NCBI GenBank assembly: GCA_903828645.1 | Contig: CAIKNA010000052.1 | Coordinates: 1 to 35,337 of the forward strand | DNA: 35,337 nt | From: an uncultured Bacteroidales bacterium | Lineage (GTDB): Bacteria > Bacteroidota > Bacteroidia > Bacteroidales > FEN-979 | Direction of reading: 5' to 3' | Part shown: positions 9,364 to 31,035 of the stretch, one piece after another | Numbering within the stretch: position 1 is the first letter of the stretch | Layout of the letters: the number at the start of each line of letters is the position of its first letter | Made by a program: the position numbers and the translations under genes | Notes under the pieces: model-generated | The model's input: only the letters and a program-made list of their open reading frames with translations | The model's database searches: none | Told to the model about the DNA's origin: nothing

Positions 9364-11769
9364 TCAAAAACCAGGTCCGCTGATCACCTCAAAACCGATG
9401 GTGAGGCTCTCCCCGTATTGATCGACCAGCGTGAGCCGGTGTTTGCCGCGGCCGGGCGAAAGGGCCATCTGGTGAACCTGTGCAGTGGTGCCGATATACT
9501 GATCGTCGAGATGCCAGTAAACAAGTGCCGCAGCATTCCTGTGGGCCACCTTGAATACCGTGCTCCCAGGCTTCCCGTCGAGATCGACAGGGATGTAAAT
9601 TTTGCTGTTGTTTTTCGGATAGATGATGTCCATATTTTTCCTGTCGCCATTCCCGGCACAACCGGGACGGAAAGGGGGCAACACCTTGTAAAACGGGTTT
9701 TTGTTGCGAAAATACCACTCCTGCACCGGAGGCAGGACAAACCATGAAACATGCTGCATATTTTCCGGTGATTCGCAATTGGAGCTGACCTGCCACAACC
9801 CGGTTTTATCAAGGTGTATGATCTGGTGAAACGGACAGGGAGCTGTTTTAGCTCCCGACTTCGGGATCCAGACCGAATCGGTAAACTCACAGATGGCGGT
9901 GGCCCGGTAACCGCTGTAATGGCAAACCGGAACCTGCATCATGGCAGCTGCCGGCATCCTGAACCAGGTGGTAGGGGGGAGTGTTTTAAAGATATCAAAC
10001 AGCACCGGAGCAGCCATCCCGACACCGGTCAGCCCCGTCCTGCCCTCCCCTGAGGCATTGCCAACCCACACCGCCACGACATATTCAGGAGTCACCCCGA
10101 TGGACCATGCGTCGCGGTTTCCAAAACTGGTGCCGGTTTTCCACGCGATTTTGTGCGACGAGGAGAACTGCTGCCACTGTTGTTCGGCATCCGGCCGCGA
10201 AACCTCCACCATGGCTTCGAATGCAAGCCAGATGGAACCGGCATCGAACCAACAGGCCTGATTGCTGACTGATTGCTTTTTTACCTCTCTCCTATCCAGG
10301 TATTCCGGCGGATGAAAATCGGCTTTGTCGTATTTCGACCCGTTTTCGGTATAGTGGCTGAGGGTGCGTGCCATGGAGGCATAAATCCCAGAAAGATCCC
10401 ACAGGCTGGCCTCGGCACCGCCCAGGATGATGGACAAGCCATAATGGCCGGCCGGGTTTGTCAGTGTGGTCATGCCCAGTTTTCGCAGCAAGGCGTAAAA
10501 CTGCTCGTATCCATAGGTTTGAAGCATTTTCACTGCCGGGATGTTCAGCGACCGCGACAGCGCCATTTTTGCCGGAACGGCCCCGTCATAAGTCAGGTTA
10601 TAGTTTTCGGGGATAAAACCGCCTACCTGCATCGGAATGTCGGGAACCAGTGTATTGGGAAGCAGCAGTCCGTCATTCAGCATGGCAGTGTAGAGAAAAG
10701 GTTTTAAAATACTGCCGGTGCTGCGGGGTGCCGTGATGATGTCGACGTTGTTCCCATGGGCACGCGACATGTTACCGGGGAGGTTGCCGGCATACGCAAG
10801 CACATGGCCGGTACTCACTTCCAGGACCAGGGCCGCGGCATTGTGTATTTCATTGGCCCTGAACTGGATGCTGTGGATATCCAGGATGTCGTTCACCCGC
10901 TTTTGCAAGGCGAAATCTATTGTGGTAATGACACGCGTGCCTTTGTTTCCTTCCCTGACGGCACGGTCGAGCAGGTGTGGCGTCCATTGCGGCAATGCAT
11001 AAGGCTTGTCGGGCAATTTCTCACTTTTAGCCAGGTCGCGTGTGGATGCGTCTATTACTCCCCCTGTACAAAGAAGGTCGAGCAGGTGATCGCGCCTAGC
11101 AAGTAATAACCCGGGATTCCGCCCGGGATAAATCAGCCCCGGACTGTTTGGCAGAACCGCAAGAGTGGCAGCTTCCGCCCAGGAGAGATGGGAGGCATCT
11201 ATACCGAAATAACGCCAGGAAGCTGCATCCAATCCCACAACATTGCCTCCAAAGGGTGCATGCGAAGCATAAAGCCTCAAAATATCCCCCTTGCTGCGGG
11301 TAAATTCAAGCCGGTATGCCAGGAAGAGTTCCCTGAATTTCTCAACAAAGGTCCGCTCCCTGTTTTTCCGCACCAGGCGGATTACCTGCATGGTGATGGT
11401 ACTCCCCCCACTGACAATTCTATGGTGTTTTATGTTGAGATAGGCCGCCCTCAGGAGTGCCACGGGGTTAACCCCGGGGTGATACCTGAAGTACCTGTCC
11501 TCGTAATGGATGATGGCCAGCCTGAACTTCTCGGGAACATCTTCGCTCTCAGGGAAACGCCATTGCTGGTCGTCCGAAATTTTTGCACCAAGCAGGTTTC
11601 CGTTGCAGTCAAGCAAAACGGTAGAAAGCGGATCCTGGAACAAGGGCGATGGGAGGGCAAACCAGAACAGGATGATCACCATGAGCATCACGGCATATAC
11701 CAGATACCGCTGAAACCGCGCCTTGCCGGCCTTCTGCTGCAAACTTTTCAACCATGATACACCTTCCAT
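9364..11769 (-). CDS. pbpC: Penicillin-binding protein 1C
   Basis: Bifunctional class A peptidoglycan synthase, 801 residues from the ATG at 11769. A membrane anchor lies at about 20-40. The GT51 glycosyltransferase domain shows EDRYFRYHPGVNP (catalytic Glu90) and GGSTITMQ. The transpeptidase domain shows SILK (nucleophile Ser353), SLN in SRSLNIP, and KTGT (Lys544). A C-terminal ~90-residue beta domain (IIYPKNNSKIYIP ... GKHRLTLVDQYGES) is the BiPBP_C domain that separates PBP1C from PBP1A/1B. The start at 11769 leaves an 11-bp gap after the alpha-2-macroglobulin stop; an in-frame ATG at 11811 would overlap it by 31 bp and add 14 residues. The pairing with an alpha-2-macroglobulin gene is widespread and suggests repair of peptidoglycan when host or rival proteases breach the envelope. 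Confidence 0.95.
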   Translation of the reverse strand: MEGVSWLKSLQQKAGKARFQRYLVYAVMLMVIILFWFALPSPLFQDPLSTVLLDCNGNLLGAKISDDQQWRFPESEDVPEKFRLAIIHYEDRYFRYHPGVNPVALLRAAYLNIKHHRIVSGGSTITMQVIRLVRKNRERTFVEKFRELFLAYRLEFTRSKGDILRLYASHAPFGGNVVGLDAASWRYFGIDASHLSWAEAATLAVLPNSPGLIYPGRNPGLLLARRDHLLDLLCTGGVIDASTRDLAKSEKLPDKPYALPQWTPHLLDRAVREGNKGTRVITTIDFALQKRVNDILDIHSIQFRANEIHNAAALVLEVSTGHVLAYAGNLPGNMSRAHGNNVDIITAPRSTGSILKPFLYTAMLNDGLLLPNTLVPDIPMQVGGFIPENYNLTYDGAVPAKMALSRSLNIPAVKMLQTYGYEQFYALLRKLGMTTLTNPAGHYGLSIILGGAEASLWDLSGIYASMARTLSHYTENGSKYDKADFHPPEYLDRREVKKQSVSNQACWFDAGSIWLAFEAMVEVSRPDAEQQWQQFSSSHKIAWKTGTSFGNRDAWSIGVTPEYVVAVWVGNASGEGRTGLTGVGMAAPVLFDIFKTLPPTTWFRMPAAAMMQVPVCHYSGYRATAICEFTDSVWIPKSGAKTAPCPFHQIIHLDKTGLWQVSSNCESPENMQHVSWFVLPPVQEWYFRNKNPFYKVLPPFRPGCAGNGDRKNMDIIYPKNNSKIYIPVDLDGKPGSTVFKVAHRNAAALVYWHLDDQYIGTTAQVHQMALSPGRGKHRLTLVDQYGESLTIGFEVISGPGF

Positions 11770-11780
11770 TTTCAGCCCCG

Positions 11781-14700
11781 CTATTTCGAAGCCGGAACCA
11801 CGGTTACCCATCGACCCGGGACCCTGGCGCTGATGTTGTTATCGTACATTGCCTCACAACCCGTTGACGGAAGATAGAACCTGCCGAGGTAGGTGGCCAT
11901 CACCATCACCTTGAAAGTGCTGGTTTGCCCGGGATCGAGATCAAAAAATGTATTGACCCGGTCGTCGCGGACATCCTGGTAGTTGAAGACGGAGGCAGTT
12001 GTATTCGACTGAGCAAGATCGCTGTTCCGGGCGTTGATGATTTCCCAACCCGACGGAAAGACCTGTGATAACGCCAGCTGACGGTAAATTCCCTGCAACC
12101 CTGGATTCGTGATGGAGACCTCTGCTACAAAACTGGTACCTTGTGGCAGGACCTGGGGTTTGAGCGTCTGCCCGGTCATCGTTTTGAAAACCATGGAAAT
12201 CCTGAGATTGCTGGCCGAAGATGTGGTGTCGCCCTGTGCAGGAATTCCGGTAAGGATGAGCCGGGCAAACAGGATGTTCTTTCCCTGGTTCGTCACCTGC
12301 ATGATCCCCTTTTTACCGGGGATGACATCGATCTTCCGGCTGAACACCGGTTTCGTTGACTCCATCGCTTCCGGTTGTCCGGAATTCAACCGGAGAGAAG
12401 CCCGGATGCCAATGCCCCCGGTATTCCCGGTGAACCCGGCGATGACCATCAGGGCAAATGAAGTTGACTGCGTGCTGTACCATTCATCGCTGCACAACGA
12501 GGCCGAAAGTTCCTTCACCAGCGGTATAGCCCTGGTCTTCATATCCATCAGGCAGAGGGCATTGATGATGATGGCTTTATCGCGCAGGTCGGAGCCATAG
12601 GTATGATAGCTTTCACGGTAAGGTTTCACAGAAGTGGTGAGGGTGTTGATGATTCGCAGCGCCACCTCCCTTTTCCCGGTAATCTGGTATGCCGCTGCCA
12701 GTTGCCACCGGGCTGCAACAGAAAGGTCTATCATTTCAAGCAATTTGTTCATGGCTCCCAGTTCGGGCGCTTTGGCAAGGGCCAGCGTATACAACCGGTA
12801 GGCCTGCATCAGGTCGTCGTTGTAAAAAGATGCATTGGCGTTCCAGGAAACCGCCTTCTGGTGCTGAAATTCCTTCCAGGATGCCAACAGGTTCACCGGG
12901 AGGGCAAATCCCTTTTGTTCCGCCTCCAGCAGAAAATGGCCGGCATAGTTGGTTCCCCAGTCATCGGCATAGGTCGCTCCCGGCCAATAGGCCAAGCCCC
13001 CATTCGACATTTGAAAGGACTTCAGGCGTTGGATTGCGGCAACGATATTCTGTTCGGTCTCCTTTTTTGCACTCTCCGAAAGGTCAACCAACCCTGCAAG
13101 GTATAACTGCGGAAAAGCCGAAGAAACCGTTTGTTCGATGCACCCGTAAGGATAATGGATGAGATACGACAGCCTCTTCTCCAGGTTCAAAGGCGGGATG
13201 GATGAAATTTCCAGGGTTCCCCTGTTTGTCCCGGGAATACCCGGGGCATGGAATTCATTTGTCCAGGTGCTCCCGGGTTGGATTGATTTTTCCAAAACAT
13301 CGGTGACCGGCAAATTGGGGTTGCGCACGCCGATCTCGATGGTATGTTCCGCTTTTAATTTACCGCTGGTGGCAACAATTCTCACTTTGCCAATACCCAC
13401 TGCCTGTGCTACCGTAAGGTCGAAGTCGACCAGCTGATCGCCCGGGCCGCTGAAGGAGAGTTGTTTCGTATTTTCACCGGTGATTGAAAACAAATCATTG
13501 ACGATCAGTTCTACCTTCACATATTTTATGGATTTGTCCATGGAAAATACGGTTACCGGCAATTTCACTGTTTCGCCGGGGCCTGCCACTCTTGGCAGGG
13601 TTCCAAGTACCATCAGCGGCTTTTTCACGGCAACAGATTTCTCACTCCGGCCATAGGCTCCCTCCTGCCCCGCGACCACCATCACGCGCACCGAACCGAT
13701 ATACTCAGGCATGATGAACGAATGTGTTCTGACCTGCCCCTTTTTCAACTCAAACGGCCCCATAAACCTGACCATTGGCTTGAACCGGTTGGCCTTGAGC
13801 CCCCCTTTGTTCAAAACATCCTGGTCGCCCCCGATACTGAGGATGCGTTGCAGCTCGCCGCTGAAGGCTCCCATCACCTGGTCGAACAAATCCCATGTTT
13901 TCACGCCCAATGCCTCCCGTGCATAAAAAACGCTCCACGGATCGGGTGTTTTAAACCTCGTAAGATCGAGCAACCCTTCATCCACCATGGCAAGGGTATA
14001 GGTCATTGGTTTTCCGGCTGCCTCCTTGACCCTGATCACAACCTCTTTACCAGGTTCCAGGTCATTATTCATGGCGATCACCGGGGAAAGGTGTGTTGCC
14101 GGATTTTCAACCGGGACCGGAATAACACCATAAAGCCTGATCGGAAGATCGTTTTTGGTTTGGGCGTGTGGCTGAATGAGGGTCACACAGGCGTAGCAAT
14201 TGGGCGACATTACTTCAGTGGCATCAAATGAAATTTCAGTGGTTCCTTTTGAGGTTGGCACCCAGTATGATTTCACGATTTCCGACCCTGTTTCGATGGT
14301 AATCAGCGCCCTTCCGTCGGGCGAAGCCGGCAGGGTGAGTTTCACCTTGTCACCAACGCAGTAATGACTTTTATCCGTGGTGAGGGTAAGCATGGCAGCC
14401 GCCTGTTTTTCACCCCCCGGCATGCGGTAATAACCCGGCCAGTCAACATACACGACCTTTCCTGCTGCATGGCCCGAGGTTTTGTCGGTTACCCTGATCA
14501 GGTACCTTCCCCAGTTGTTGTATTCGGCCTGGAAAGCAAATGTGGCTTTCCCGTTAACCGTTTTCACAGTTGCCGAATCGCATGGCCTGATGTAGGCGGT
14601 CGAGATAAAGTCGGCCGATCCCGCTTCCGAATTATCCCACCACCAGCGCCATTCCAATTTGAACACCTCTACTTTCAACCGGTTCGAAGGCACCGGAAGA

Positions 14701-17354
14701 CCCTGTGCATCCACATTCAGGAGGCTGATGTCGTAGGTTTTATCGGTGTAAAGCACCCGGTCGCCGGTTTTGCCCCCGGGAACGCTCAGCCCGGCATAGG
14801 ATTGATAGGGATAATAGGGAATGGTAAAACGATCGACACTGAAATCTCCGCCATCTTCAAAGACCATGGTCTCAAAACTTGCCTTGAGCGCCCCGGGAGC
14901 AATGTTGGTCACATGTATCTTCGGGGAGATCAGAGTACGGCCGTTTGCATCAAGCCGGCCATCGAAAACGGTTATGTTCTCCGCTGCAAAACCAACCGTC
15001 GGATTATCAAAAACATAACCAGGATAGTTCTTAAAAGCAGTGGTGGATTTTGACAAAGTCAGCATGACCTTCGCCTTGAGGTTGCGCGCGGTTGCGCCTG
15101 TGAGCCATGTCGCTTCGAGCATTGCCGCAGGAACCTTGTCTTTTACGAGGTGATCTGTTTTGAAATCGAAACCGATCTTCAAACGATTTGGTTTCACCAT
15201 CTCAATTTTCAGGGTTTTCTGGAATTCGGCCCCTCCCACGTTTACTTTCGCAAGCCAGTTCCCGGTGGGCGCATCATCTGCCGTGGCCGTGTTGAAATTA
15301 TAAAATCCATTCACAGGATTGGTCCTGACGATCCGGTTGATCAGCTGCCCGTTTGGGTTGAACAGCGACATGCTTACCGGGTGATGCAGCGGAAGCTGAT
15401 GCATTTTATCCTCAAGGATGAAAGTCAGGAATATCGAGTCGCCCGGCCGCCATACGCCTCGTTCGCCGTAGATAAAACCCTTGAGACCCTTCTGGACAGG
15501 TTCGCCGCTCACATCGAACATGCTGAGCGAAAGCGAATTTCCATCGGTCAGCTTCAGGTACCCGGTTTGTGACCCATTTCTTGCCACAAGAATAAAGGGT
15601 TGTTTCTTCATCTGAACGATGCTCATGCCCTCCCCATCTGTAGTTGCCTTTGCCAAACTTTGTAACTGGAAATTATAGAATTCGACCGAAACACCCGAAA
15701 GCGGTTTTGTCGTTACAAGGTCAGTGACGAAAACATGATAACTGCCATCACTCCCTGCTTTGGCGATCATGCCCAGGTCGGATGCCAGTACATTCCGGCT
15801 GACCGACTTATTGAAAAAATAGGATGCTTTGCAGGGGTTGTCGCGTTCCTGCCAGTGGTAGTTTTTCCAGCCGCCATCGCGATAATCATTCTCTTCAAAG
15901 CTGCTGTAATAATCCCAGTTCCTGTCATTCTCTTTTTCAGGATCATTTTCAATGAACATATCGTTTGCCGGGGCAGCCAGGGTATCTGTATCCGCGCATG
16001 GGTAGGTTGAATATGCTTTTTTAAACCGGAGAATAACCGAATAGATAGCCCCGGGCTCCGCATGCATGAGCGTGGAAAGGTCGATGGAGTAACGGTTCCA
16101 TTTGCCATAATCGGGCACCCCGTTGAGCGGGATGGTTTTCTTCAACACAACCCTTCCCACGCGCGCGAGCTGGGAGTTGTCGTTCAGCTCGTTGACCTGG
16201 AGAAACTGCAATATATTTCCGGCAAAAATCCGCACAACTTTAATGTCAACGGCATTGAGATTTACCGCTTCAAACGGGAGCAGCATGCCATTGGAACTGG
16301 GCAGGATCACTCCATCACCGGTAAAACGGACATTCGGTTTGGTGTTGTCGATCGCGACTTGTTCCACCACCCTTTTTCCCAGCAGCACCTGGTTCAGGTT
16401 GCGTATGGATGGTTCAATGGTGAGGTTGACTTTTTTATTTTCAGTTTCCGGGAAATAGATCCAGAGCAGGTTGTCCTCCACATTGTAGCGAAGGTTGTCA
16501 TATTTTCCCACCCTGAAAAGTCCGTCGAGATCCTGGTTTGCTACCAGCGGATCAGAGAACTGCACCCTCAGGCATTGCTGCGTGTTCGGAAAACTGCGTA
16601 CAGAGATAAGTTTAAAATTATCCAGGGCGGGGATTTCGATGGTTGTGTTCCCCTCTGTTCGTGAATCAACCGGTGATCCATCCCACGCCAGTTTCACTTC
16701 GCCTGGCTCCCGGCTCCTGATGATTGAATCGACCTGGAAAAAATGGGTGCGCTTTTTCTGGTCGTGTGTCCAGGAAACCGGCAGAATCCTGCTTCCCTGG
16801 CGGGCGGTGAGGATTTTCTCCACCTGCCGGTCATCTGCGAAATCAGATGTCTGCAGGGTTCCGGTGAGATGTTCTTTTGAAAGATTTTCGCGTCTGTAGG
16901 CTTTGTGATTATCCGCCTCCACCGACAGCTCCTGCACCATCGTGTGAAACTGGAAAACCATGGTTTTCAGGGAATCGGGCAGTGTTAAAAGTCTGGAAAG
17001 GTAAAATTCCACCGTGTAAACCTGGTCCTGGGGCAACTTTTCGTCTGGTAAGAATTCAAGGGTCCGGCTGTCGGTCCAGCAGGCTTGTCCTTTAATTGCA
17101 GGGCTGAATTTGAAATATTCGACAGTAACCGGTACGCCAAGGGTTGCCGTATCGGCAAAATTATCGGAGAGCCTCACCTTGATGGTGGTTCGTGTGGAAA
17201 CCGTCCCCGAGGTGAAGGCCTGCACATATTCGCGAAAAGCAGGATTAACCCTGACCAGCCCATGTTGGTTTTTTCCTTTGTGGGCTAAAACAAGCATGGC
17301 ACCGATGAAAACAACGATGCCTGCTAAAACGAAGTAGAAGTAGACTTTCTTCAT
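11781..17354 (-). CDS. Bacterial alpha-2-macroglobulin with thioester
   Basis: An 1857-residue periplasmic protease trap. Residues 5-24 form a hydrophobic segment followed by HKGKNQHG. I see no lipobox cysteine, unlike the E. coli lipoprotein homologue, so it may be held by an uncleaved anchor. Multiple MG-type beta domains follow; RGVWRPGDSIFLTF is a recognisable macroglobulin-domain motif. YPYGCIEQT contains the CxEQ thioester (Cys1405-Gln1408), which in the family covalently captures attacking proteases after bait cleavage. An alpha-helical thioester domain surrounds it (QNIVAAIQRLKSFQMSNGGLAYWPG). The C-terminus ends GRWVTVVPASK. It is immediately followed by pbpC with 11 bp between, so the two are co-expressed. 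Upstream is the RRM gene, 51 bp away, with no obvious terminator between them. Confidence 0.95.
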   Translation of the reverse strand: MKKVYFYFVLAGIVVFIGAMLVLAHKGKNQHGLVRVNPAFREYVQAFTSGTVSTRTTIKVRLSDNFADTATLGVPVTVEYFKFSPAIKGQACWTDSRTLEFLPDEKLPQDQVYTVEFYLSRLLTLPDSLKTMVFQFHTMVQELSVEADNHKAYRRENLSKEHLTGTLQTSDFADDRQVEKILTARQGSRILPVSWTHDQKKRTHFFQVDSIIRSREPGEVKLAWDGSPVDSRTEGNTTIEIPALDNFKLISVRSFPNTQQCLRVQFSDPLVANQDLDGLFRVGKYDNLRYNVEDNLLWIYFPETENKKVNLTIEPSIRNLNQVLLGKRVVEQVAIDNTKPNVRFTGDGVILPSSNGMLLPFEAVNLNAVDIKVVRIFAGNILQFLQVNELNDNSQLARVGRVVLKKTIPLNGVPDYGKWNRYSIDLSTLMHAEPGAIYSVILRFKKAYSTYPCADTDTLAAPANDMFIENDPEKENDRNWDYYSSFEENDYRDGGWKNYHWQERDNPCKASYFFNKSVSRNVLASDLGMIAKAGSDGSYHVFVTDLVTTKPLSGVSVEFYNFQLQSLAKATTDGEGMSIVQMKKQPFILVARNGSQTGYLKLTDGNSLSLSMFDVSGEPVQKGLKGFIYGERGVWRPGDSIFLTFILEDKMHQLPLHHPVSMSLFNPNGQLINRIVRTNPVNGFYNFNTATADDAPTGNWLAKVNVGGAEFQKTLKIEMVKPNRLKIGFDFKTDHLVKDKVPAAMLEATWLTGATARNLKAKVMLTLSKSTTAFKNYPGYVFDNPTVGFAAENITVFDGRLDANGRTLISPKIHVTNIAPGALKASFETMVFEDGGDFSVDRFTIPYYPYQSYAGLSVPGGKTGDRVLYTDKTYDISLLNVDAQGLPVPSNRLKVEVFKLEWRWWWDNSEAGSADFISTAYIRPCDSATVKTVNGKATFAFQAEYNNWGRYLIRVTDKTSGHAAGKVVYVDWPGYYRMPGGEKQAAAMLTLTTDKSHYCVGDKVKLTLPASPDGRALITIETGSEIVKSYWVPTSKGTTEISFDATEVMSPNCYACVTLIQPHAQTKNDLPIRLYGVIPVPVENPATHLSPVIAMNNDLEPGKEVVIRVKEAAGKPMTYTLAMVDEGLLDLTRFKTPDPWSVFYAREALGVKTWDLFDQVMGAFSGELQRILSIGGDQDVLNKGGLKANRFKPMVRFMGPFELKKGQVRTHSFIMPEYIGSVRVMVVAGQEGAYGRSEKSVAVKKPLMVLGTLPRVAGPGETVKLPVTVFSMDKSIKYVKVELIVNDLFSITGENTKQLSFSGPGDQLVDFDLTVAQAVGIGKVRIVATSGKLKAEHTIEIGVRNPNLPVTDVLEKSIQPGSTWTNEFHAPGIPGTNRGTLEISSIPPLNLEKRLSYLIHYPYGCIEQTVSSAFPQLYLAGLVDLSESAKKETEQNIVAAIQRLKSFQMSNGGLAYWPGATYADDWGTNYAGHFLLEAEQKGFALPVNLLASWKEFQHQKAVSWNANASFYNDDLMQAYRLYTLALAKAPELGAMNKLLEMIDLSVAARWQLAAAYQITGKREVALRIINTLTTSVKPYRESYHTYGSDLRDKAIIINALCLMDMKTRAIPLVKELSASLCSDEWYSTQSTSFALMVIAGFTGNTGGIGIRASLRLNSGQPEAMESTKPVFSRKIDVIPGKKGIMQVTNQGKNILFARLILTGIPAQGDTTSSASNLRISMVFKTMTGQTLKPQVLPQGTSFVAEVSITNPGLQGIYRQLALSQVFPSGWEIINARNSDLAQSNTTASVFNYQDVRDDRVNTFFDLDPGQTSTFKVMVMATYLGRFYLPSTGCEAMYDNNISARVPGRWVTVVPASK

Positions 17355-22875: not shown

Positions 22876-24555
22876 ATGAAACATCTCCTCATCATAACGT
22901 TTGCCATCCTGTTTTCATTCAGCTTGTTTGCCCAGGATCAGAAGCATGTGGTTTTTCTTAAAAATAAAAACAACAATCCTTACTCTCTTTCCAATCCAAA
23001 CGCCTTCCTCACACAACGGTCACTTGATCGCCGCACCAGGGCAAACATCCCCCTCGATGCAAAAGACCTTCCCGTAACACCTTCATATGTTGCGCAAATC
23101 GCCGCAACCGGCGCCACTGTGGTTTATTCGCTGAAATGGTTCAATGCTGTGGTTGTGAAAACGAATGTTCCCTCTATACTGGCTGCCATCGCTGCGCTTC
23201 CGTTTGTCGATCATCTCGACCAGGTGCTGTCGGACCATCCGCTAAAGACAACCAGCCCCTCCGGGATCAAAACAACCGCCGGGATTCCCCCGTTTACCCT
23301 TGTCAAACCAGGCCCCCGGGCCGTTGTCAAGTCCTCAGATGCAATCAATTACGGACAGGCTTACAACCAGGCGCACATGATCGCCGTTGACGGGCTTCAC
23401 AACCTGGGCTATACCGGCGACGGGATGATGATTGCCATCCTGGATGCAGGATTCAGCAACGTAGACGTGGTTTCGGCTTTCGACAGCCTCTGGCTGACCA
23501 ACCGCATCCTGGGTACCCGCGACTTCAACCTCCCCGGAAACAATGTCTTTGCCGATACGATGCATTATCACGGCACGATGGTCCTTTCTGCCATGGGAGC
23601 CAATCTCCCGGGGCAGATTGTCGGGACTGCCCCGCATGCCTCTTTCTGGCTGGTCCGTACCGAAGTCGCCTGGTACGAAGCCCTCGTTGAAGAGTACAAC
23701 TGGGCAGGCGGCGCTGAATTTGCCGACAGTCTCGGTGCCGATGTCATCAACTCTTCCCTGGGATACACCGAATTTGACAACCCGGCTTTCAACCATACCT
23801 ATGCAAACATGGACGGCAACACCACCCCCATTACCCGTGCGGCCGATTTAGCCACCAGCCGGGGAATACTGGTTGTAAGCAGCGCCGGAAATGAAGGGGC
23901 CTCCCCATGGCATTATATCTCAGCACCGGCTGATGGTGACAGCGTTTTTACGATCGGGGCCGTGGATTCCCAGGGGTCTTACGCCTATTTCAGTTCAACC
24001 GGTCCTACCTTTGACGGCCGCATCAAACCCGACGTCGTCGCACAGGGTGAAAACGCCACTGTTGTGAATCCGGGTGGCAGTGTTGTACAGGGAAGCGGAA
24101 CCTCGTTTTCTTCGCCAATCATGGCCGGCGCACTCACCTGCCTGTGGCAATCCACACCGGACTTTTCTGCAGAACAAATCCGCCAGGCCGTTCGGAACAG
24201 CGCCTCCCGGACAAACACACCTGACTCGCTTTACGGCTGGGGGATCCCAAACCTGATGAGTGCAAGAACCCTTCTTTCAACGCCGGAGGTGAGTCCCATC
24301 CCGCAGAATCAGTTTTCATTGTTTCCGACACCCTTTTCCTCTGCCCCGATCCTCAAAGCCAGCCTGAAAGCTCCTGAAACAATAAAGGTCGAAGTGCTTT
24401 CGGTCACCGGGCAGCTGATGAGTTCAAAAGTGTTTCTTTTCCATGAATTCACTGCCGTAACACTGGAGGATTTTACCGCCTTCCCCGCGGGAATCTATTT
24501 CCTGCGAATTTCAACCGGTTCCATGCAGCAGGTAATCAGGGCCGTGAAAATTTAA
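22876..24555 (+). CDS. Subtilisin-like S8 serine peptidase with T9SS tail
   Basis: A 559-residue secreted protease. A signal peptide (about 1-19, ending LFAQ) is followed by a prodomain to about 155. The S8 catalytic domain has Asp190 in IAILDAG, His232 in YHGTMVLSAM, oxyanion Asn339 in SSAGNEG, and Ser410 in GTSFSSPIMAG, so the triad is complete. The last ~80 residues (FSLFPTPFSSAPILKAS to VIRAVKI) form a T9SS type A sorting domain, in which FPTP replaces the usual YPNP; GIYFLRIST near the end is typical. The product is probably exported through T9SS and acts outside the cell on proteins or peptides. It has its own promoter element and is followed 49 bp later by a membrane glycosyltransferase-like gene on the same strand. 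Confidence 0.93.
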   Translation: MKHLLIITFAILFSFSLFAQDQKHVVFLKNKNNNPYSLSNPNAFLTQRSLDRRTRANIPLDAKDLPVTPSYVAQIAATGATVVYSLKWFNAVVVKTNVPSILAAIAALPFVDHLDQVLSDHPLKTTSPSGIKTTAGIPPFTLVKPGPRAVVKSSDAINYGQAYNQAHMIAVDGLHNLGYTGDGMMIAILDAGFSNVDVVSAFDSLWLTNRILGTRDFNLPGNNVFADTMHYHGTMVLSAMGANLPGQIVGTAPHASFWLVRTEVAWYEALVEEYNWAGGAEFADSLGADVINSSLGYTEFDNPAFNHTYANMDGNTTPITRAADLATSRGILVVSSAGNEGASPWHYISAPADGDSVFTIGAVDSQGSYAYFSSTGPTFDGRIKPDVVAQGENATVVNPGGSVVQGSGTSFSSPIMAGALTCLWQSTPDFSAEQIRQAVRNSASRTNTPDSLYGWGIPNLMSARTLLSTPEVSPIPQNQFSLFPTPFSSAPILKASLKAPETIKVEVLSVTGQLMSSKVFLFHEFTAVTLEDFTAFPAGIYFLRISTGSMQQVIRAVKI

Positions 24556-24604
24556 CCTCTGGCGGGACTGGCGTATGCCTTTTGTTTAAAAATAGATATA
24601 CCAG

Positions 24605-26287
24605 ATGAAATCCCCGAAAAAAAAGAGCAAAGGTGCCGCGCAACTGCAACCGGCAGGCCTTGAGGGTTGGTTGACAAATACCTGGTTCGCGATCCTGGTC
24701 CTGGCATCCGTCACCTTCATGGTTTATGCCCGGACCCTGCTCCTCGATTATACAAAACTCGATGATTCCATTTTCATCGTCGAGAATGCCCAATACAATG
24801 CCGATGCCAAAAATATAGGGGTTTCTTTTCAACGGGGGCTGTTCAACCCCACCAAAGATGCCTATTACCGCCCCGTTTTCCTGGTTGATTTCATTCTCGA
24901 ATCGCGCATCTTCGGCATCAGGCCCGCCGGTTATCACTTCACAAACCTGCTCTACCACCTGCTTTCCGTGGTATTGCTGTTTCTCTTTTTCAAAAAGATC
25001 AAGATCCCCCCGCTGAATGCATTCCTGCTCTCCCTGCTTTTTGCGGTGCACCCCGTCCTTACGCAGGCCGTAGCCTGGATTCCGGGCCGAAACGACATGC
25101 TGCTGATGATCTTCTTTCTCAGCTCATTCATCTTTTTGCTGAAATATCTTGAAAAACCAACGATTCCGATCCTTTTGGTTCATTTCCTGTTTTTCCTCAC
25201 CGCACTTTTTACCAAGGAAACGGCCGTCATCATCCCGGTGATCATGGGCGGATTTTCATTTTTTTACCTGAAAAGCGGCTGGAGGAAGCTCGTTGCTCCT
25301 GTGATCAGCTGGATCGCGGCTGTTTCCATCTGGATAGCCGTCCGGTCAACAGCCACCCTTGCCAGGAACTGGGTCTCTCCCACCGAAATGGTCCATGCAG
25401 GTCTTGACCGACTGGGCGTTATCCTGCAATACCTCGGGAAAATATTCTTCCCTGTAAACCTGACTGTTTTCCCGATGGCGGAAGATATTACCCTGGTCTG
25501 GGGCATCCTCGCATTCGCCGGGCTCATTGCACTGGTCATCTATTCAAAAAGCTATGACAGGCCGCTTACCTGGCTGGGTCTCTTCTGGTTTATCGTTTTC
25601 CTCGTCCCGGTCCTCATCGTTCCAAAATCATTGAACGACCAGGTTTTTGAACACCGTTTATACCTTCCGGTGATCGGGATCCTGATCATGCTCAGCCAGG
25701 CGGTTCCCTTTACCGGCAAGATAAAACCAAATGTAAAATTTGCAGTGGTGGCTGCAATCGCAGCGATCTTCATGGTTCAAAGCTTTGTAAGGACCACTTA
25801 CTTCAGCGACCCTGTCACCTTCTGGACCCATGCAGTTAACGGGTCGCCCCATTCAGCCTATGCGAAAACGCTTCTTGGAACCAAAACAGAGGATCCGGCA
25901 GAACGGGAACGTCTTTTCAGGGAGGCCCGGGCGATCGACCCAAAACTGAAAAACCTCAATTATTACCTCGGAAAAGTTCTTTTTGACAGGAAAGAGGCAG
26001 ATACCGCTGAATTTTACCTGCGAAAGGAGGTCGCGAACAACCCGATCCCCGATGCCTACTTTTTACTGGCACAGATCGCTTTCTCCAGGAACAGTTTCGA
26101 CAGCGCCGCTGTAAACCTCGAAAAAGTTATTGAACTCAACCCGATGGATCCGCAGGCCAACCACAACCTGGTCCTGCTCTATTTTCAACACGGGCATCCG
26201 GAGAAGTCCAGGCAGGTCATTCGTGACATGCAGGCCAGGGGAATGGGGGTTGGAGATGACCTTCTTCAGATGGTCAACGGCAAGTGA
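24605..26287 (+). CDS. TMTC/GT39-like multispanning protein with C-terminal TPRs
   Basis: A 560-residue membrane protein. About 10 hydrophobic segments lie between residues 25 and 410. After TM1 comes KLDDSIFI (Asp53-Asp54), at the position where GT-C enzymes place their catalytic loop acid. LLFAVHPVLTQAVAWIPGRNDML matches the conserved HP...E/Q-V...GR-D motif of eukaryotic TMTC O-mannosyltransferases and their bacterial relatives. Residues ~420-545 form about three tetratricopeptide repeats (PDAYFLLAQIAFSRNSFDSAAVNLEKVIELNP). The usual activity would be sugar transfer from a lipid-linked donor to proteins in the periplasm. The specific substrate is unknown, and it could also be a non-catalytic homologue. 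It converges on the NRAMP-like gene with a 9-bp gap. Confidence 0.85.
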   Translation: MKSPKKKSKGAAQLQPAGLEGWLTNTWFAILVLASVTFMVYARTLLLDYTKLDDSIFIVENAQYNADAKNIGVSFQRGLFNPTKDAYYRPVFLVDFILESRIFGIRPAGYHFTNLLYHLLSVVLLFLFFKKIKIPPLNAFLLSLLFAVHPVLTQAVAWIPGRNDMLLMIFFLSSFIFLLKYLEKPTIPILLVHFLFFLTALFTKETAVIIPVIMGGFSFFYLKSGWRKLVAPVISWIAAVSIWIAVRSTATLARNWVSPTEMVHAGLDRLGVILQYLGKIFFPVNLTVFPMAEDITLVWGILAFAGLIALVIYSKSYDRPLTWLGLFWFIVFLVPVLIVPKSLNDQVFEHRLYLPVIGILIMLSQAVPFTGKIKPNVKFAVVAAIAAIFMVQSFVRTTYFSDPVTFWTHAVNGSPHSAYAKTLLGTKTEDPAERERLFREARAIDPKLKNLNYYLGKVLFDRKEADTAEFYLRKEVANNPIPDAYFLLAQIAFSRNSFDSAAVNLEKVIELNPMDPQANHNLVLLYFQHGHPEKSRQVIRDMQARGMGVGDDLLQMVNGK

Positions 26288-26296
26288 GTTTCTTGT

Positions 26297-27544
26297 TTAT
26301 TTGAAAAGAGGCAGGATCAGCAATGTGAGCGATAATCCGGTGAGGATGAAAACAGTACCCCACCCGATGATGTTCTGAATGGCCTTGTTCGTGTAATTCC
26401 CCATGATCTTTTTATTGTTTACCAGCAGGATCATGCAAACCAGCACCACCGGCAGCAGGACCCCGTTGATGATCTGCGTCCAGAGGGTGATGGCAATCAG
26501 CGGAGCATTCGGGATGAGGATGATGATCACACCGAGGATGATGATCCCGGTATAAAGGATGTAAAACTCAGGAGCCTCCTCCCATTTTTTATCGATTCCG
26601 GCTTCAAAACCAAATGCTTCGCAAACGTAAAAAGCGGTGGCCAGCGGAAGGATCGTCGCTGAAAATATAGAGGCAATGAACAGCCCGAATGCAAAAACAT
26701 TCGAGGAGAGGGCACCGGCCAGCGGTTCGAGCGCCATGGCGGCATCCTTGGCTTCGTTGATCACGATCCCCTTCACATGGAGCGTTGATGCGCAGGCAAC
26801 GATGATGAAAAATGCGACAACCACCGTAGCGGTACAGCCAACGACAATATCGATGAGGGTATATTTATAATCCCTGATTTTGAGACCTTTTTCGATTACC
26901 GACGACTGCATGTAAAATTGCATCCATGGCGCGATGGTGGTCCCGATGATGCCGATGATAACCATCAGCGACTGTTCGTTGAAATCCATTTGAGGGCGGA
27001 CAAGCGAATGGCCAATCGCCTTCCAGTCGGGTTTTCCCATCAAAGCAGAAACGACATACATAAGCAGTGAAACGCTGAATATCAAAAAGATGCGTTCAGC
27101 CAGCTTGTAATTGCCCTTTACCACCAGGATCCATATCATGAACCCGACAAGGGGGACCGAAATATATTTGCTCACACTGAACACCTCCATGCTCCCGGCA
27201 ACCCCGGCGAATTCGGTGGTGGTGTTGCCAATGTCGGCCAGCAACAAACCGATAAAAATAAAGAAGGTGACTTTCACCCCGGCATTTTCGCGGATCAGGT
27301 CGGCAAGCCCTTTCCCGGTCACGATTCCCATCCTGGCATTCATCTCCTGGATCACGACCAAAACGATGAACGAAGGAATGAGCGTCCATAAAAGTTTATA
27401 CCCATAGAGCGCGCCGGCAACCGAATAAGTTGTAATTCCGCCGGCATCATTGTCAACGCTGCCTGTGATGATCCCCGGACCAAGAATGGCGAGGAAGAAC
27501 GCAATATTTTTCCAGATTGATTTACGCCTGCTGGATATAGCCAT
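26297..27544 (-). CDS. NRAMP-fold transporter with altered metal site (NRMT-like, probable Mg2+)
   Basis: A 415-residue inner-membrane transporter of the SLC11/NRAMP fold with about 11 TM segments (LGPGIITGSVDNDAGGITTY is TM1). In classical manganese/iron members, TM1 carries DPGN and TM6 carries MPHN. Aligning on the following GYKLLW, this protein has DAGG (33-36) at TM1. At TM6 it has IAPWMQFYMQSS, so Ala205 and Trp207 replace the metal-coordinating Met and the His. Loss of the soft Met ligand is the hallmark reported for NRAMP-related magnesium transporters (NRMTs), so Mg2+ transport is my inference. It is the second gene of an operon: its ATG lies 19 bp after the stop of a PRC/MgtE_N/CBS protein gene, a probable regulatory subunit. 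Confidence 0.9.
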   Translation of the reverse strand: MAISSRRKSIWKNIAFFLAILGPGIITGSVDNDAGGITTYSVAGALYGYKLLWTLIPSFIVLVVIQEMNARMGIVTGKGLADLIRENAGVKVTFFIFIGLLLADIGNTTTEFAGVAGSMEVFSVSKYISVPLVGFMIWILVVKGNYKLAERIFLIFSVSLLMYVVSALMGKPDWKAIGHSLVRPQMDFNEQSLMVIIGIIGTTIAPWMQFYMQSSVIEKGLKIRDYKYTLIDIVVGCTATVVVAFFIIVACASTLHVKGIVINEAKDAAMALEPLAGALSSNVFAFGLFIASIFSATILPLATAFYVCEAFGFEAGIDKKWEEAPEFYILYTGIIILGVIIILIPNAPLIAITLWTQIINGVLLPVVLVCMILLVNNKKIMGNYTNKAIQNIIGWGTVFILTGLSLTLLILPLFK

Positions 27545-27563
27545 ACCGTAACCCTTTCCTGTT

Positions 27564-28838
27564 TTACCTGGTCTTTCTTCTGCTTAACAAGTCGTCAACA
27601 ATGTCTTCCACAACCACCACCCCTTCCATCTGCCGGTCCTTATTGATCACAGGAACAACGAGCAGGTTGTATTTGGAAACGAGTTCGGCCAGCGAATCAA
27701 CATTGTCGTCATCGAAAACGCTTACCGGGTTTTTCTTCATAACCTCCTTCAATGGCTTCGCCGGATCGGCTATGACGAGTTCCCCGAGTGAAATAGCGGA
27801 AAGGAAGCGTTCATGTTTGTCGATCACGATGATGGAATAAATATGGGCCGGTTCGGGCTGCTGCCTCCTGATTTCATCCAGCGTTGCAGCCACGGTGAGG
27901 TTCTCGTCAAAAGTATAATAGTCGGTCGACATAAGCGATCCAACGTGCTTATCACGGTATTCAAGCAACTCCCGTACCTCTTCCGACGACTCTTTCTCCA
28001 TCTCTTCGAGGAGTTTTTCTGCCTTGTCATCACCAAGCACATCGAGAAGGTCGGCCACCTCGTCGGCAGGCATTTTTTCGAGCACATCGGCAACTTTCTC
28101 CACCGGGAGGCTCTCCACAATGTGGATCTGGGCGTGGGGTTCGAGCTCTTCAAGCACGTCGGCAGCCTTTTCCTCATCCAGTGAGGCGAATACGTATGTG
28201 CGCGATGCCTTGTCGAGATCTTCGATGATATCGGCCAGATCGGATGGATGCAGGGTGTTGAGCCTGGAAAGGGATTTGGAGAGTTTGATGCTGGCATTGG
28301 TGAAATCTACCGCTTCAATATCATCCCACAGGATGAATTTCCCGGGTATGTCGATGCTGAACGGGTCGAGCATCGACTGGATCGGCCTGCCGATCCCGAT
28401 TCGCCGGAGCAACCCGTCGATTCCCACATCCACGGCAATGGCATAGGTGCCCGACGGAATCATCACAAGCCGGATATCATTCACCCGCACCAGTTTCCGT
28501 CCGTTGATGTCAACGATTTGCTTGTCCTGGATATTTTCGGCCAGCCACAGGCAATTTGAAAAAGATTCGGGGGAGATATCCCTTGCTTCACCACAGGTGA
28601 TCCTGAGCTTGCGTTTGAATTTTTTTATCTCGAAGGATGAAAAATCAAGGATCCTGTATTCATTCCCCTTCTTTACCTTGATGGCCACCACACGCGGGCG
28701 CACCGGTTCGGCCTCCATCCCCGGCAGGGAACTCTGGTCGATCAGAAAATCCCTGATCTTCCCAAGGACAGTTCCATCTTCGGAAATATATTTATTCCCA
28801 AGAATCTGGCTTAAATAGAAGGTAATCTGAGATGTCAT
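27564..28838 (-). CDS. PRC-barrel/MgtE_N/CBS soluble protein (magnesium-sensor-like)
   Basis: A 424-residue soluble protein with no TM segment. Residues ~8-75 and ~100-180 look like two PRC-barrel halves (GNKYISEDGTVLGKIRDFLID; LVRVNDIRLVMIPSGTYAIAVDVGIDG). Residues ~193-300 match the MgtE N-terminal superhelical domain (LHPSDLADIIEDLD, ADVLEELEP, KVADVLEKMPADEVADLLDVLG, EEVRELLEYRDKHVGSLMS). Residues ~301-424 are a CBS pair (TVAATLDEIRRQQ, LLVVPVINKD, GVVVVEDIVDDL). In MgtE, N plus CBS form the cytosolic Mg2+ sensor that gates the channel; here the channel domain is absent and an NRAMP-fold transporter gene follows directly. I infer a trans-acting regulator of that transporter. An AAGGAGG site precedes the ATG. 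Confidence 0.9.
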   Translation of the reverse strand: MTSQITFYLSQILGNKYISEDGTVLGKIRDFLIDQSSLPGMEAEPVRPRVVAIKVKKGNEYRILDFSSFEIKKFKRKLRITCGEARDISPESFSNCLWLAENIQDKQIVDINGRKLVRVNDIRLVMIPSGTYAIAVDVGIDGLLRRIGIGRPIQSMLDPFSIDIPGKFILWDDIEAVDFTNASIKLSKSLSRLNTLHPSDLADIIEDLDKASRTYVFASLDEEKAADVLEELEPHAQIHIVESLPVEKVADVLEKMPADEVADLLDVLGDDKAEKLLEEMEKESSEEVRELLEYRDKHVGSLMSTDYYTFDENLTVAATLDEIRRQQPEPAHIYSIIVIDKHERFLSAISLGELVIADPAKPLKEVMKKNPVSVFDDDNVDSLAELVSKYNLLVVPVINKDRQMEGVVVVEDIVDDLLSRRKTR

Positions 28839-28843
28839 ATTCG

Positions 28844-28850
28844 CCTCCTT
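28844..28850 (-). promoter_or_regulatory. Strong Shine-Dalgarno (AAGGAGG)
   Basis: The minus strand reads AAGGAGG, 5 nt before the ATG at 28838. This is an unusually strong site for Bacteroidota and fixes the start of the MgtE_N/CBS gene. Confidence 0.8.
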
Positions 28851-28986
28851 CTTTTGTTATCCTCTGCAAAGAAGGGCGAATCACCATGATTAAAATCAGG
28901 ATGGAACCCTACCGGTACAGGGGTGAATTGATCTGATTGCTTCGCGCAGGTCCGTCGTCCATTTGATTGTTGAAAAAATTGCGTTG

Positions 28987-28994
28987 CAAAGATA
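28987..28994 (-). promoter_or_regulatory. Candidate promoter of the NRAMP/MgtE_N operon
   Basis: The minus strand reads TATCTTTG then CAACG, matching TAnnTTTG. It lies about 150 bp upstream of the ATG at 28838, implying a leader of about 140 nt, possibly a site for metal-responsive control. It faces away from the plus-strand element at 29008. Confidence 0.45.
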
Positions 28995-29007
28995 GTTCAA
29001 ACTTCCT

Positions 29008-29015
29008 TACTTTTG
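29008..29015 (+). promoter_or_regulatory. Promoter of the threonine dehydrogenase gene
   Basis: TACTTTTG matches TAnnTTTG, with a TTG at 28984-28986 (21-bp spacing). It lies 20 bp upstream of the ATG at 29036, which rules out the in-frame TTG at 28967 as start. Confidence 0.55.
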
Positions 29016-29035
29016 CTAAAATTAAACTCCCGGTT

Positions 29036-29986
29036 ATGACAGAAAAAATACTCGTTATCGGATGTTCCGGACAGATCGGCTCGGAACTCACACTCGAACT
29101 GCGCAAAATTTACGGCGAATCAAAGGTAATTGCAACCGATATCCGCCCTGCCCCTCCTGAAGTTGCCGGAACAGGCCCGTTTGAAATCCTGGATGTACTT
29201 GATGCTTCCAAACTCCACCTGATCCTTGAACACGAAAAAATCACCCAGGTCTACCATCTTGCGGCAATTCTTTCGGGGAATGCTGAAAAACGGCCACTCG
29301 CGTCGTGGGACATCAACATGCGCAGCCTGATGAATGTGCTCGAACTGGCCCGCGAACTGAAAATCCCGAAGATCTTCTGGCCCTCCTCCATTGCGGTATT
29401 CGGCCCCTCCACCCCGCGCTTGGATACCCCGCAATACACCATCATGGAACCCAATACGGTTTATGGCATAAGCAAGCTGGCAGGTGAACGATGGATTGAG
29501 TATTACTTCAACAAATACGGCGTGGATACCCGCAGCCTGCGCTACCCCGGGTTGATCAGTTATAAAACCGAAGCCGGCGGCGGAACCACCGATTACGCTG
29601 TCGAAATTTTCTATGAAGCCGTCAGGCACAAGAAATACGAGTGCTTCCTGGGGCCGGAATCAGCCCTCCCGATGATGTTCATGCCCGATGCCATCCGTGC
29701 TACCATCGAGGTGATGCAGGCCGATGCTGCCAAACTGACCCTGCGCTCGAGTTACAATGTTGCAGGCATTTGCTTCACCCCGCAAATTCTGGCCGCGGAG
29801 ATTAAAAAACACATCCCTGAATTCGAGATCACCTACAAACCCGACTTCCGCCAGGCCATCGCCGATTCCTGGCCGGCATGTATCAACGATGAAGTTGCCA
29901 GGAAAGACTGGGGTCTCCACTATGATTACGACCTGGCTAAAATGACGGAGGTGATGCTTGCAGAGGTTGCCAGGAAACTTGCATAA
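29036..29986 (+). CDS. NAD-dependent L-threonine 3-dehydrogenase, SDR type
   Basis: A 316-residue cytoplasmic dehydrogenase of the extended SDR family. The Rossmann motif GCSGQIG (9-15) binds NAD. The catalytic residues are Ser117/118 in WPSSIAVFG and Tyr143/Lys147 in YGISK. GGGTTDYAVEIFY (181-193) and RYPGLISYK are signature stretches of SDR-type threonine 3-dehydrogenases described in Flavobacterium and Cupriavidus, which oxidise L-threonine to 2-amino-3-oxobutyrate for conversion to glycine and acetyl-CoA. The usual partner, glycine C-acetyltransferase (kbl), is not in the window. The start at 29036 was chosen because the promoter element at 29008-29015 lies downstream of the alternative TTG. 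It is followed 11 bp later by the DUF2235 gene, probably in one transcript. Confidence 0.88.
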   Translation: MTEKILVIGCSGQIGSELTLELRKIYGESKVIATDIRPAPPEVAGTGPFEILDVLDASKLHLILEHEKITQVYHLAAILSGNAEKRPLASWDINMRSLMNVLELARELKIPKIFWPSSIAVFGPSTPRLDTPQYTIMEPNTVYGISKLAGERWIEYYFNKYGVDTRSLRYPGLISYKTEAGGGTTDYAVEIFYEAVRHKKYECFLGPESALPMMFMPDAIRATIEVMQADAAKLTLRSSYNVAGICFTPQILAAEIKKHIPEFEITYKPDFRQAIADSWPACINDEVARKDWGLHYDYDLAKMTEVMLAEVARKLA

Positions 29987-29997
29987 ACCCAAAATCC

Positions 29998-31035
29998 ATG
30001 AAAAGAATAGCGATCTTTTGCGACGGAACCTGGAATACCCCTGATAAACAGGAAGACGGAAAACGATGCCAGACCAATGTCGTTAAAATGGCCAACGCGC
30101 TGAGCACCCGGTCGGCCGACGGTACCGTTCAAAAACTCTATTACGAGATCGGAATCGGCGCCGAAGGAAGCCCGCTGAAAAAAGTCTATGATGGCGCCAC
30201 CGGCACCGGAATTTCAGCAAACATTCTCCAGGCCTACGCGTTCATCATGAACAATTTCGAGATCGGCGACGAACTCTTTTTGTTCGGGTTCAGCCGTGGA
30301 GCCTTTACTGTTCGAAGTCTGTCGGGACTGATCAGGAACTCGGGAATCCTGGATATAAGAAATGCGGATAAAATCGGGAAGGCATACGAATTATATCGTT
30401 CGCGGCATCCGACCTACCATCCCAAATCGGAGGAAGCAACCCTCTTCAGGAAGACCTTTGCTGTGGAAGAGTCGACAAAAATAAAATTCATTGGGGTCTG
30501 GGATACAGTAGGAGCATTGGGAAACCCGCTTTTTCTCCATGGAATTACCAGCGGCCGCAATGAGTTTCACGACACGGATCTCTCCTCGAAAATTGAAAAC
30601 GCCTTTCACGCGCTTGCCATCGATGAGAAAAGATCAAATTTCAAAGCCGCATTGTGGCACCAGCAGCCCGGTGTTACGGGTCAGACGCTCGAACAGGTCT
30701 GGTTTGCAGGGGTCCACTCCGATGTAGGCGGCGGATATGCTGAAACCGCCTTGTCAGATATCCCTTTGCAATGGATGCTTGAAAAAGCCAGGAGTTGCAA
30801 CCTCAGTTTTGAGCCGCTGGAACTCCACCCCGATCCCATGGGACTGAAACATGAATCGATGACCTGGTATTACAAACTGAACGGGACTTACCACCGTCCG
30901 GTCAGCATAAACATACCCGGCAAAGGTGATACCAATGAGCAGTTGCACGCGTCGGTGGTGGAAAGATATCAAAAAGACCCGAGCTACAGGCCCGAAAACC
31001 TGGCCCGCTATTTTCCGGCTGCCGAAAAACAATAG
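29998..31035 (+). CDS. DUF2235 alpha/beta-hydrolase (Tle1-like)
   Basis: A 345-residue cytoplasmic-looking protein (no signal peptide) of the DUF2235 family, whose members include the type VI secretion phospholipase effector Tle1. The start MKRIAIFCDGTWNTP is the family's opening signature. The nucleophile elbow is GFSRGAF (Ser99), with likely partners Asp169 in VWDTVGALG and His240 in HSDVGGGY, so a Ser-Asp-His triad seems intact. The C-terminus lacks the membrane-inserting extension of large Tle1 proteins. No VgrG, PAAR, adaptor or immunity gene is nearby, so an effector role is not supported here; a housekeeping esterase is equally possible. Its last 28 bp overlap the 3' end of the opposing beta-propeller gene. 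Confidence 0.9.
   Translation: MKRIAIFCDGTWNTPDKQEDGKRCQTNVVKMANALSTRSADGTVQKLYYEIGIGAEGSPLKKVYDGATGTGISANILQAYAFIMNNFEIGDELFLFGFSRGAFTVRSLSGLIRNSGILDIRNADKIGKAYELYRSRHPTYHPKSEEATLFRKTFAVEESTKIKFIGVWDTVGALGNPLFLHGITSGRNEFHDTDLSSKIENAFHALAIDEKRSNFKAALWHQQPGVTGQTLEQVWFAGVHSDVGGGYAETALSDIPLQWMLEKARSCNLSFEPLELHPDPMGLKHESMTWYYKLNGTYHRPVSINIPGKGDTNEQLHASVVERYQKDPSYRPENLARYFPAAEKQ

Follow-up and report, generated by a model that had tools for sequence, protein, structure and literature searches.

A NRAMP-fold carrier and its MgtE-like soluble neighbour as a putative two-protein Mg2+ uptake system in a Bacteroidales genome

NRAMP-related Mg2+ transporters (NRMTs) add another class to the bacterial Mg2+ importers, and among the open papers listed we found no report of a mechanism that shuts them off. 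The locus described here raises the question of whether a soluble neighbour could provide it. On the minus strand of the window, by which we mean the whole 35,337-nucleotide stretch of DNA analysed from the genome of an uncultured Bacteroidales bacterium, a gene for such a transporter follows one for a protein resembling the cytosolic part of the MgtE channel (Table 1). We consider it reasonably probable that the two form an NrmT-type Mg2+ uptake system, in which the partner would be a cytosolic Mg2+ sensor that restrains the carrier in trans.

The idea of trans-regulation is already in print and is not new: most NrmT genes adjoin a gene for a homologue of the MgtE cytoplasmic domain, and feedback regulation of NrmT by this MgtE-like neighbour has been proposed, with metal chaperone activity named as an alternative role for the partner (Shin et al., 2014, PMC4072509). 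The pair in the window is a well-formed member of this published two-gene system. As in the operons described there (Ca_c0685; A. capsulatum ACP2976/2977), a NRAMP-related carrier stands beside a homologue of the MgtE cytoplasmic domain, but without an M-box and in a host that appears to be Bacteroidota, as are its nearest named relatives. The words PRC and CBS are absent from the main text of PMC4072509, the portions of PMC9606685 and PMC12873925 available to us treat NRMTs without the word MgtE, and the open literature yielded no paper with both PRC-barrel and MgtE, nor, judged by title and leaving subscription papers and supplements aside, a study of the function of the NrmT partner. What we add is the conservation of single Mg2+ sites, a swap of gene order, negative controls and the co-occurrence with MgtE, although these may have been published elsewhere.

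Table 1. Features of the carrier and sensor genes in the window
Feature	Position	Strand	Basis
NRMT-type (NRAMP-related Mg2+ transporter) gene, 415 aa	26297..27544	(-)	ORF, Pfam, structure-relative match
DAGG, D33-G36, at the metal site where TM1 is unwound, replacing DPGN	27437..27448	(-)	sequence; alignment to EleNRMT D55/G58
APWM, A205-M208, with T202 three residues ahead of A205: TM6 TxxA site, replacing AxxMPHN	26921..26932	(-)	sequence; alignment to EleNRMT T224/A227/W229
Gene for the soluble, sensor-like partner (424 aa, without a membrane segment), ending 19 bp before the NRMT gene	27564..28838	(-)	ORF, Pfam, hydropathy
First PRC barrel, about residues 1-85 (Pfam match 6-35)	28584..28838	(-)	Pfam; strands modelled for the relative L035
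Second PRC-like barrel, about residues 95-180, including D110, D121, R145, R146 and W171, which rank among the most invariant residues	28299..28556	(-)	conservation, 150 rows; Pfam PRC in relatives below cut-off only
MgtE_N domain, residues 196-296; D227, D259 and D263 at MgtE sites Mg7, Mg4 and Mg6	27951..28253	(-)	Pfam, mapping to MgtE
CBS pair, about residues 300-420; D412 and D415 at MgtE D247 and D250; protein end precedes the MgtE plug helix	27579..27941	(-)	Pfam, 2yvy match, mapping

The carrier and the sensor

The carrier matches the Pfam Nramp family (PF01566; E 3.5e-97), and its best solved relative is EleNRMT (PDB 7qia; E 5.2e-110), to which it is 44.8% identical over 400 residues. 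A sequence-only reading of the locus had placed DAGG and APWM where NRAMPs carry DPGN and MPHN, and had assigned the gene to the NRMTs; the motifs were read correctly, and the assignment agrees with both matches and with the metal site. Carrier residues D33, G36, T202, A205 and W207 align to EleNRMT D55, G58, T224, A227 and W229, so that in the alignment both proteins show DxxG-TxxA with a tryptophan after the site instead of a histidine, and DxxG-TxxA/T is the NRMT signature given in the accessible part of Ramanadane et al. (2022, PMC8806188). A crude hydropathy count finds 9 membrane-like hydrophobic segments in the carrier, and the predicted model of a relative (L035) matches 7qia with a TM-score of 0.91 by target length. 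In a tree of 62 rows, computed without canonical Nramps and A. capsulatum and with EleNRMT on a long branch, the carrier groups with the NRMTs, apart from the DPSG outgroup, on a branch with 100/100 support. While EleNRMT was studied, in the part of the paper available, as a carrier alone with nanobodies, the window's carrier is known here from its sequence; it likely imports Mg2+.

The partner had been described as a protein with PRC, MgtE_N and CBS domains and no membrane part, a description with which Pfam and hydropathy agree. It is encoded on the same strand as the carrier across an intergenic gap at 27545-27563, and matches MgtE_N (3e-27), CBS (9.9e-11, in two stretches) and the MgtE cytosolic domain 2yvy (E 2.5e-31). 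Its PRC match is closer to the threshold (7.3e-05; 23.1 bits, with the cut-off at 21.2), and the second barrel, in segments taken from four relatives, scores below the PRC cut-off in two and gives no score in the remaining two. Pfam does not find the MgtE membrane domain (PF01769) in the protein, and the hydropathy count gives it 0 membrane-like segments; among 150 related sensors the same count gives 0 segments in 117, 1 in 30 and 2 in 3, and we take those counted as noise of this crude measure. The MgtE_N domain and the CBS pair are thus common to the partner and the cytosolic domain of the MgtE channel (PDB 2yvy, 2zy9), from which it differs in having neither a membrane domain nor a plug helix, in its additional N-terminal PRC barrels and in the change of most ATP-contact residues.

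Mapped by a MgtE numbering checked against 16 residues that PMC5882242 and PMC5529423 name, the window's sensor keeps E59 (as D), D91, D95, D247 and D250. Conservation over the 150 distinct sensors is high at Mg6 (D95 is D/E in 140), at Mg4 (D247 is D/E in 136, D91 is D in 106) and at Mg7 (E59 is D/E in 129), and poor at Mg5, where D226 is D in 29 and D250 is D/E in 71. The accessible part of PMC5882242 attributes closure of the MgtE gate to sites Mg4, Mg5 and Mg7. Mg2 and Mg3, which lie on the plug helix, are missing, as the window's sensor ends before this helix and related sensors mostly do likewise.

Could the CBS pair instead sense an adenine nucleotide, as in MgtE with ATP, and couple uptake to the energy state, with Mg2+ sensing only secondary? 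We regard this as very improbable. Several ATP-contact positions do retain their character in the 150 sensors, R187 being R/K in 139, D188 D/E in 119 and Y170 Y in 109; but the position of F227, which MgtE requires for ATP binding according to the part of PMC5529423 available, is aromatic in only 48, and at the contact positions the window's sensor has S335, G352, K368 and L392 and retains only E353 and V372.

Pairing across genomes

NRMT-like loci were picked by similarity of the transporter alone, from Bacteroidota (best 30 loci, 395 genomes), from a sample of named loci (best 80 of 578 candidates), from Bacillota (best 30 loci; 398 genomes, 49 with a match) and from Acidobacteriota (best 30 loci; 199 genomes, 61 with a match). 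Of the resulting 170 rows, one is the window's own (L004); four genes are represented twice, leaving 166 distinct rows. The arrangement seen in the window recurs in these relatives: a same-strand sensor lies within 600 bp of the NRMT-like gene in 148 rows (146 of the 166 distinct). Of the remaining rows, 5 have the sensor at a greater distance, 9 show none although at least 1.3 kb is available on either side, and 8 show none at a contig edge; one of these 8 (L107) holds a fragment of a sensor on the opposite strand. No sensor was found at any of 30 control loci with a canonical DPGN Nramp, nor at 21 control rows with a DPSG/DPGG Nramp (20 genes, L162 and L173 being pieces of one), the flanks of both sets being mostly 1.5 kb. 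The conserved gene pair is not due to chance.

The sensor comes first in 113 of the 148 adjacent pairs and the carrier in 35, and each order is found in more than one phylum, suggesting that the linkage has outlived rearrangement. Departures from DAGG and APWM among the rows are TPWQ in L011 and L012 and DASG in some Bacillota. Fusions of the two families, which the sequence-only reading had also held worth looking for, did not turn up: none of the 170 loci has an open frame matching both profiles, and long frames in L112, L222 and L229, considered as candidates, match the carrier only, with the sensor in another frame.

Two observations on the layout of these loci may be recorded. L044 (2140-8025) carries two sensor-carrier pairs that face one another across two tRNA genes. 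Among 32 distinct pairs whose sensor and carrier are in frame with one another (e.g., L049 and L175), 21 have TAG as the intervening stop codon, a count uncorrected for relatedness; of the sensor frames outside such pairs, 114 show their full stop and 31 of these use TAG (10 more run off the end). Overlap with the ribosome site is likely.

The linkage is looser in places. Among eight genomes in which an NRMT locus has no adjacent same-strand sensor in view, six have one MgtE_N protein each, all of the sensor type, and two have no MgtE_N match. Four of the six genes have no NRMT match nearby (one of them at a contig end) and one stands beside a second NRMT; in Terriglobus, the sensor lies about 1 kb from the NRMT with one gene between. 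When seven Acidobacteriota stretches were extended by about 6 kb per side where possible, a same-strand sensor appeared in two, at about 1 and 4 kb, an edge fragment in one and none in four. The distant or unseen sensors of some Acidobacteriota, together with the two genomes without MgtE_N, indicate that tight linkage is not obligatory.

Such looseness, with the sensor 1-6 kb away or unseen, would also fit a partner that is no gate at all but a Mg2+ buffer, a chaperone, an assembly factor or a control of carrier stability or level, its pairing reflecting co-expression. The metal chaperone named by Shin et al. is of this kind, and the C. acetobutylicum carriers work without a partner (PMC4072509). 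We nonetheless judge this account unlikely: of the three NRAMP branches tested, only one shows the pairing, and the retention of Mg4, Mg6 and Mg7 in most of the 150 sensors, alongside a complete MgtE_N-CBS array, would better fit a conformational sensor.

Mg2+ or Mn2+

The metal served by the pair can be approached through its relatives and its host. Riboswitches were scanned in 17 chosen loci, 13 of them from Bacillota, and then in 18 further sources, with L053 scanned twice. An M-box (RF00380), a Mg2+ riboswitch, lies upstream of the operon in 12 of the 13 Bacillota loci, close relatives included; the sequence of the thirteenth (L057), without an M-box, begins inside the sensor gene. None of the 21 non-Bacillota loci scanned has one, and no M-box or other riboswitch was found at 24500-30500 of the window. 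As a separate observation, in L077 (3057-4742) an M-box stands directly 5' of an NRMT without an adjacent sensor; the only MgtE_N partner found in that genome (G395) is on another contig (L118, 931-2190).

In the 62-row tree, the window's carrier falls into a 100/100 clade of 24 rows together with eight M-box-bearing Bacillota relatives, to which it is 65-75% identical; three other M-box rows fall outside this clade. So does the branch of Terriglobus, which we take to belong to the same family as A. capsulatum. This placement bears on a reading in which the pair serves Mn2+, or both Mn2+ and Mg2+, and the sensor answers to Mn2+, as the A. capsulatum carrier rescues Mn2+ uptake fully and Mg2+ uptake only at low-millimolar Mg2+ (PMC4072509). 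Since the A. capsulatum pair behaves mainly as a Mn2+ transporter, the neighbour alone is no proof of Mg2+ specificity. For the window, however, we hold a Mn2+ system to be quite improbable, in view of the grouping with M-box relatives and of the host's other transporters.

The host genome, in 409 contigs with an estimated completeness of 100% and 4.57% contamination, encodes two further Nramps, one canonical with DPGN/MPHN and one with DPSG. Its one MgtE_N protein is the window's sensor, and it gave no match to the MgtE membrane domain or to CorA, the latter matched in 14 of 14 control genomes. The link to Mg2+ made by the sequence-only reading thus finds support in the M-boxes of Bacillota relatives and in this host repertoire. 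That the NRMT would be the host's only Mg2+ importer is ruled out by an MgtA-type ATPase that scores above its cut-off. In a sample of 28 genomes picked from the 395, the MgtE membrane domain occurs in 3 of 14 with an NRMT and in 12 of 14 without (Fisher p 0.0018, uncorrected for relatedness), and in none of seven chosen genomes with a close NRMT. A corresponding loss of CorA was considered and dropped, CorA being present in 8 of 14 genomes with an NRMT and 11 of 14 without (p 0.42).

Contact and a possible gate in trans

The second PRC-like barrel carries the invariant residues D110, D121, R145, R146 and W171, which would make it a candidate contact surface, although part of this conservation may be general to PRC barrels. 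The sequence-only reading had supposed that the two proteins touch, and AlphaFold2 models weakly favour such contact. In these, the sensor and carrier of two relatives were folded as one chain, read through the intervening stop codon; the pTM was 0.77 (L035) and 0.69 (L097), with a mean pLDDT of 88 in both and below 50 in the linker, against roughly 0.5-0.6 estimated for two rigid halves without a fixed relation. These models lend weak support to contact, as the short linker ties the halves together, the two alignments share many rows, and the models were judged by pTM and pLDDT alone, without a negative control.

Covariation was computed over 145 sensor-carrier pairs (80-92 effective). By mutual information, no inter-protein coupling ranks in the top 100 and 17 rank in the top 300, and several of the highest inter-protein pairs touch cytosolic loops. 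In a reduced-alphabet mean-field analysis, the cytosolic share of the top 30 and top 100 couplings is 0.30 and 0.28 for all pairs and 0.13 and 0.29 for the main clade, against a background of 0.24; the top scores of 5.86 and 5.53 lie slightly above the 4.7-5.1 and 4.9-5.3 of five shuffled pairings each, an excess that shared ancestry alone could explain.

Taken with the kept residues of Mg4, Mg6 and Mg7, the candidate contact surface leads us to propose that Mg2+ causes the sensor to compact at the carrier's cytosolic side. The NRAMP-fold carrier would import Mg2+, and the soluble partner would sense cytosolic Mg2+ through acidic sites of the MgtE type in its MgtE_N and CBS domains; at high cell Mg2+ the sensor, bound at the carrier's cytosolic face, would compact and slow uptake, the PRC-like barrels being the best candidates for touching the carrier. 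MgtE accomplishes the same regulation in cis, with a plug helix, whereas the window's sensor would act in trans and ends before that helix. Gating of the carrier by the sensor is plausible on this model. Co-expression of the A. capsulatum partner rescued no better (PMC4072509); as that assay sought better growth under Mg2+ limitation, a brake at high Mg2+ would probably have been missed.

More tentatively, and with somewhat less than even confidence, we suggest that one Mg2+-sensing module (MgtE_N-CBS) regulates two unrelated folds, MgtE in cis and the NRAMP-fold carrier in trans, the latter by PRC-barrel docking and without a plug helix, and that in part of the Bacteroidota the pair replaces MgtE. 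If the partner is indeed the gate, the sensor module would have moved between unrelated transporter folds, which would help to explain genomes without MgtE.

Elsewhere on the minus strand of the window, 3645-5459 and 5920-7725 encode neighbouring, closely similar proteins of 604 and 601 aa with CxNCHGG near the N-terminus and repeated domains, which look like a tandem duplication. The genes at 9364-11811 and 11781-17354, also on this strand, overlap; the first presumably encodes a PbpC-type transglycosylase and the second a bacterial alpha-2-macroglobulin, and a PADLOC scan of 11781-17354 gave no match. On the plus strand, 29998-31035 encodes a protein with a Tle1-like phospholipase domain (PF09994; E 8.1e-85).
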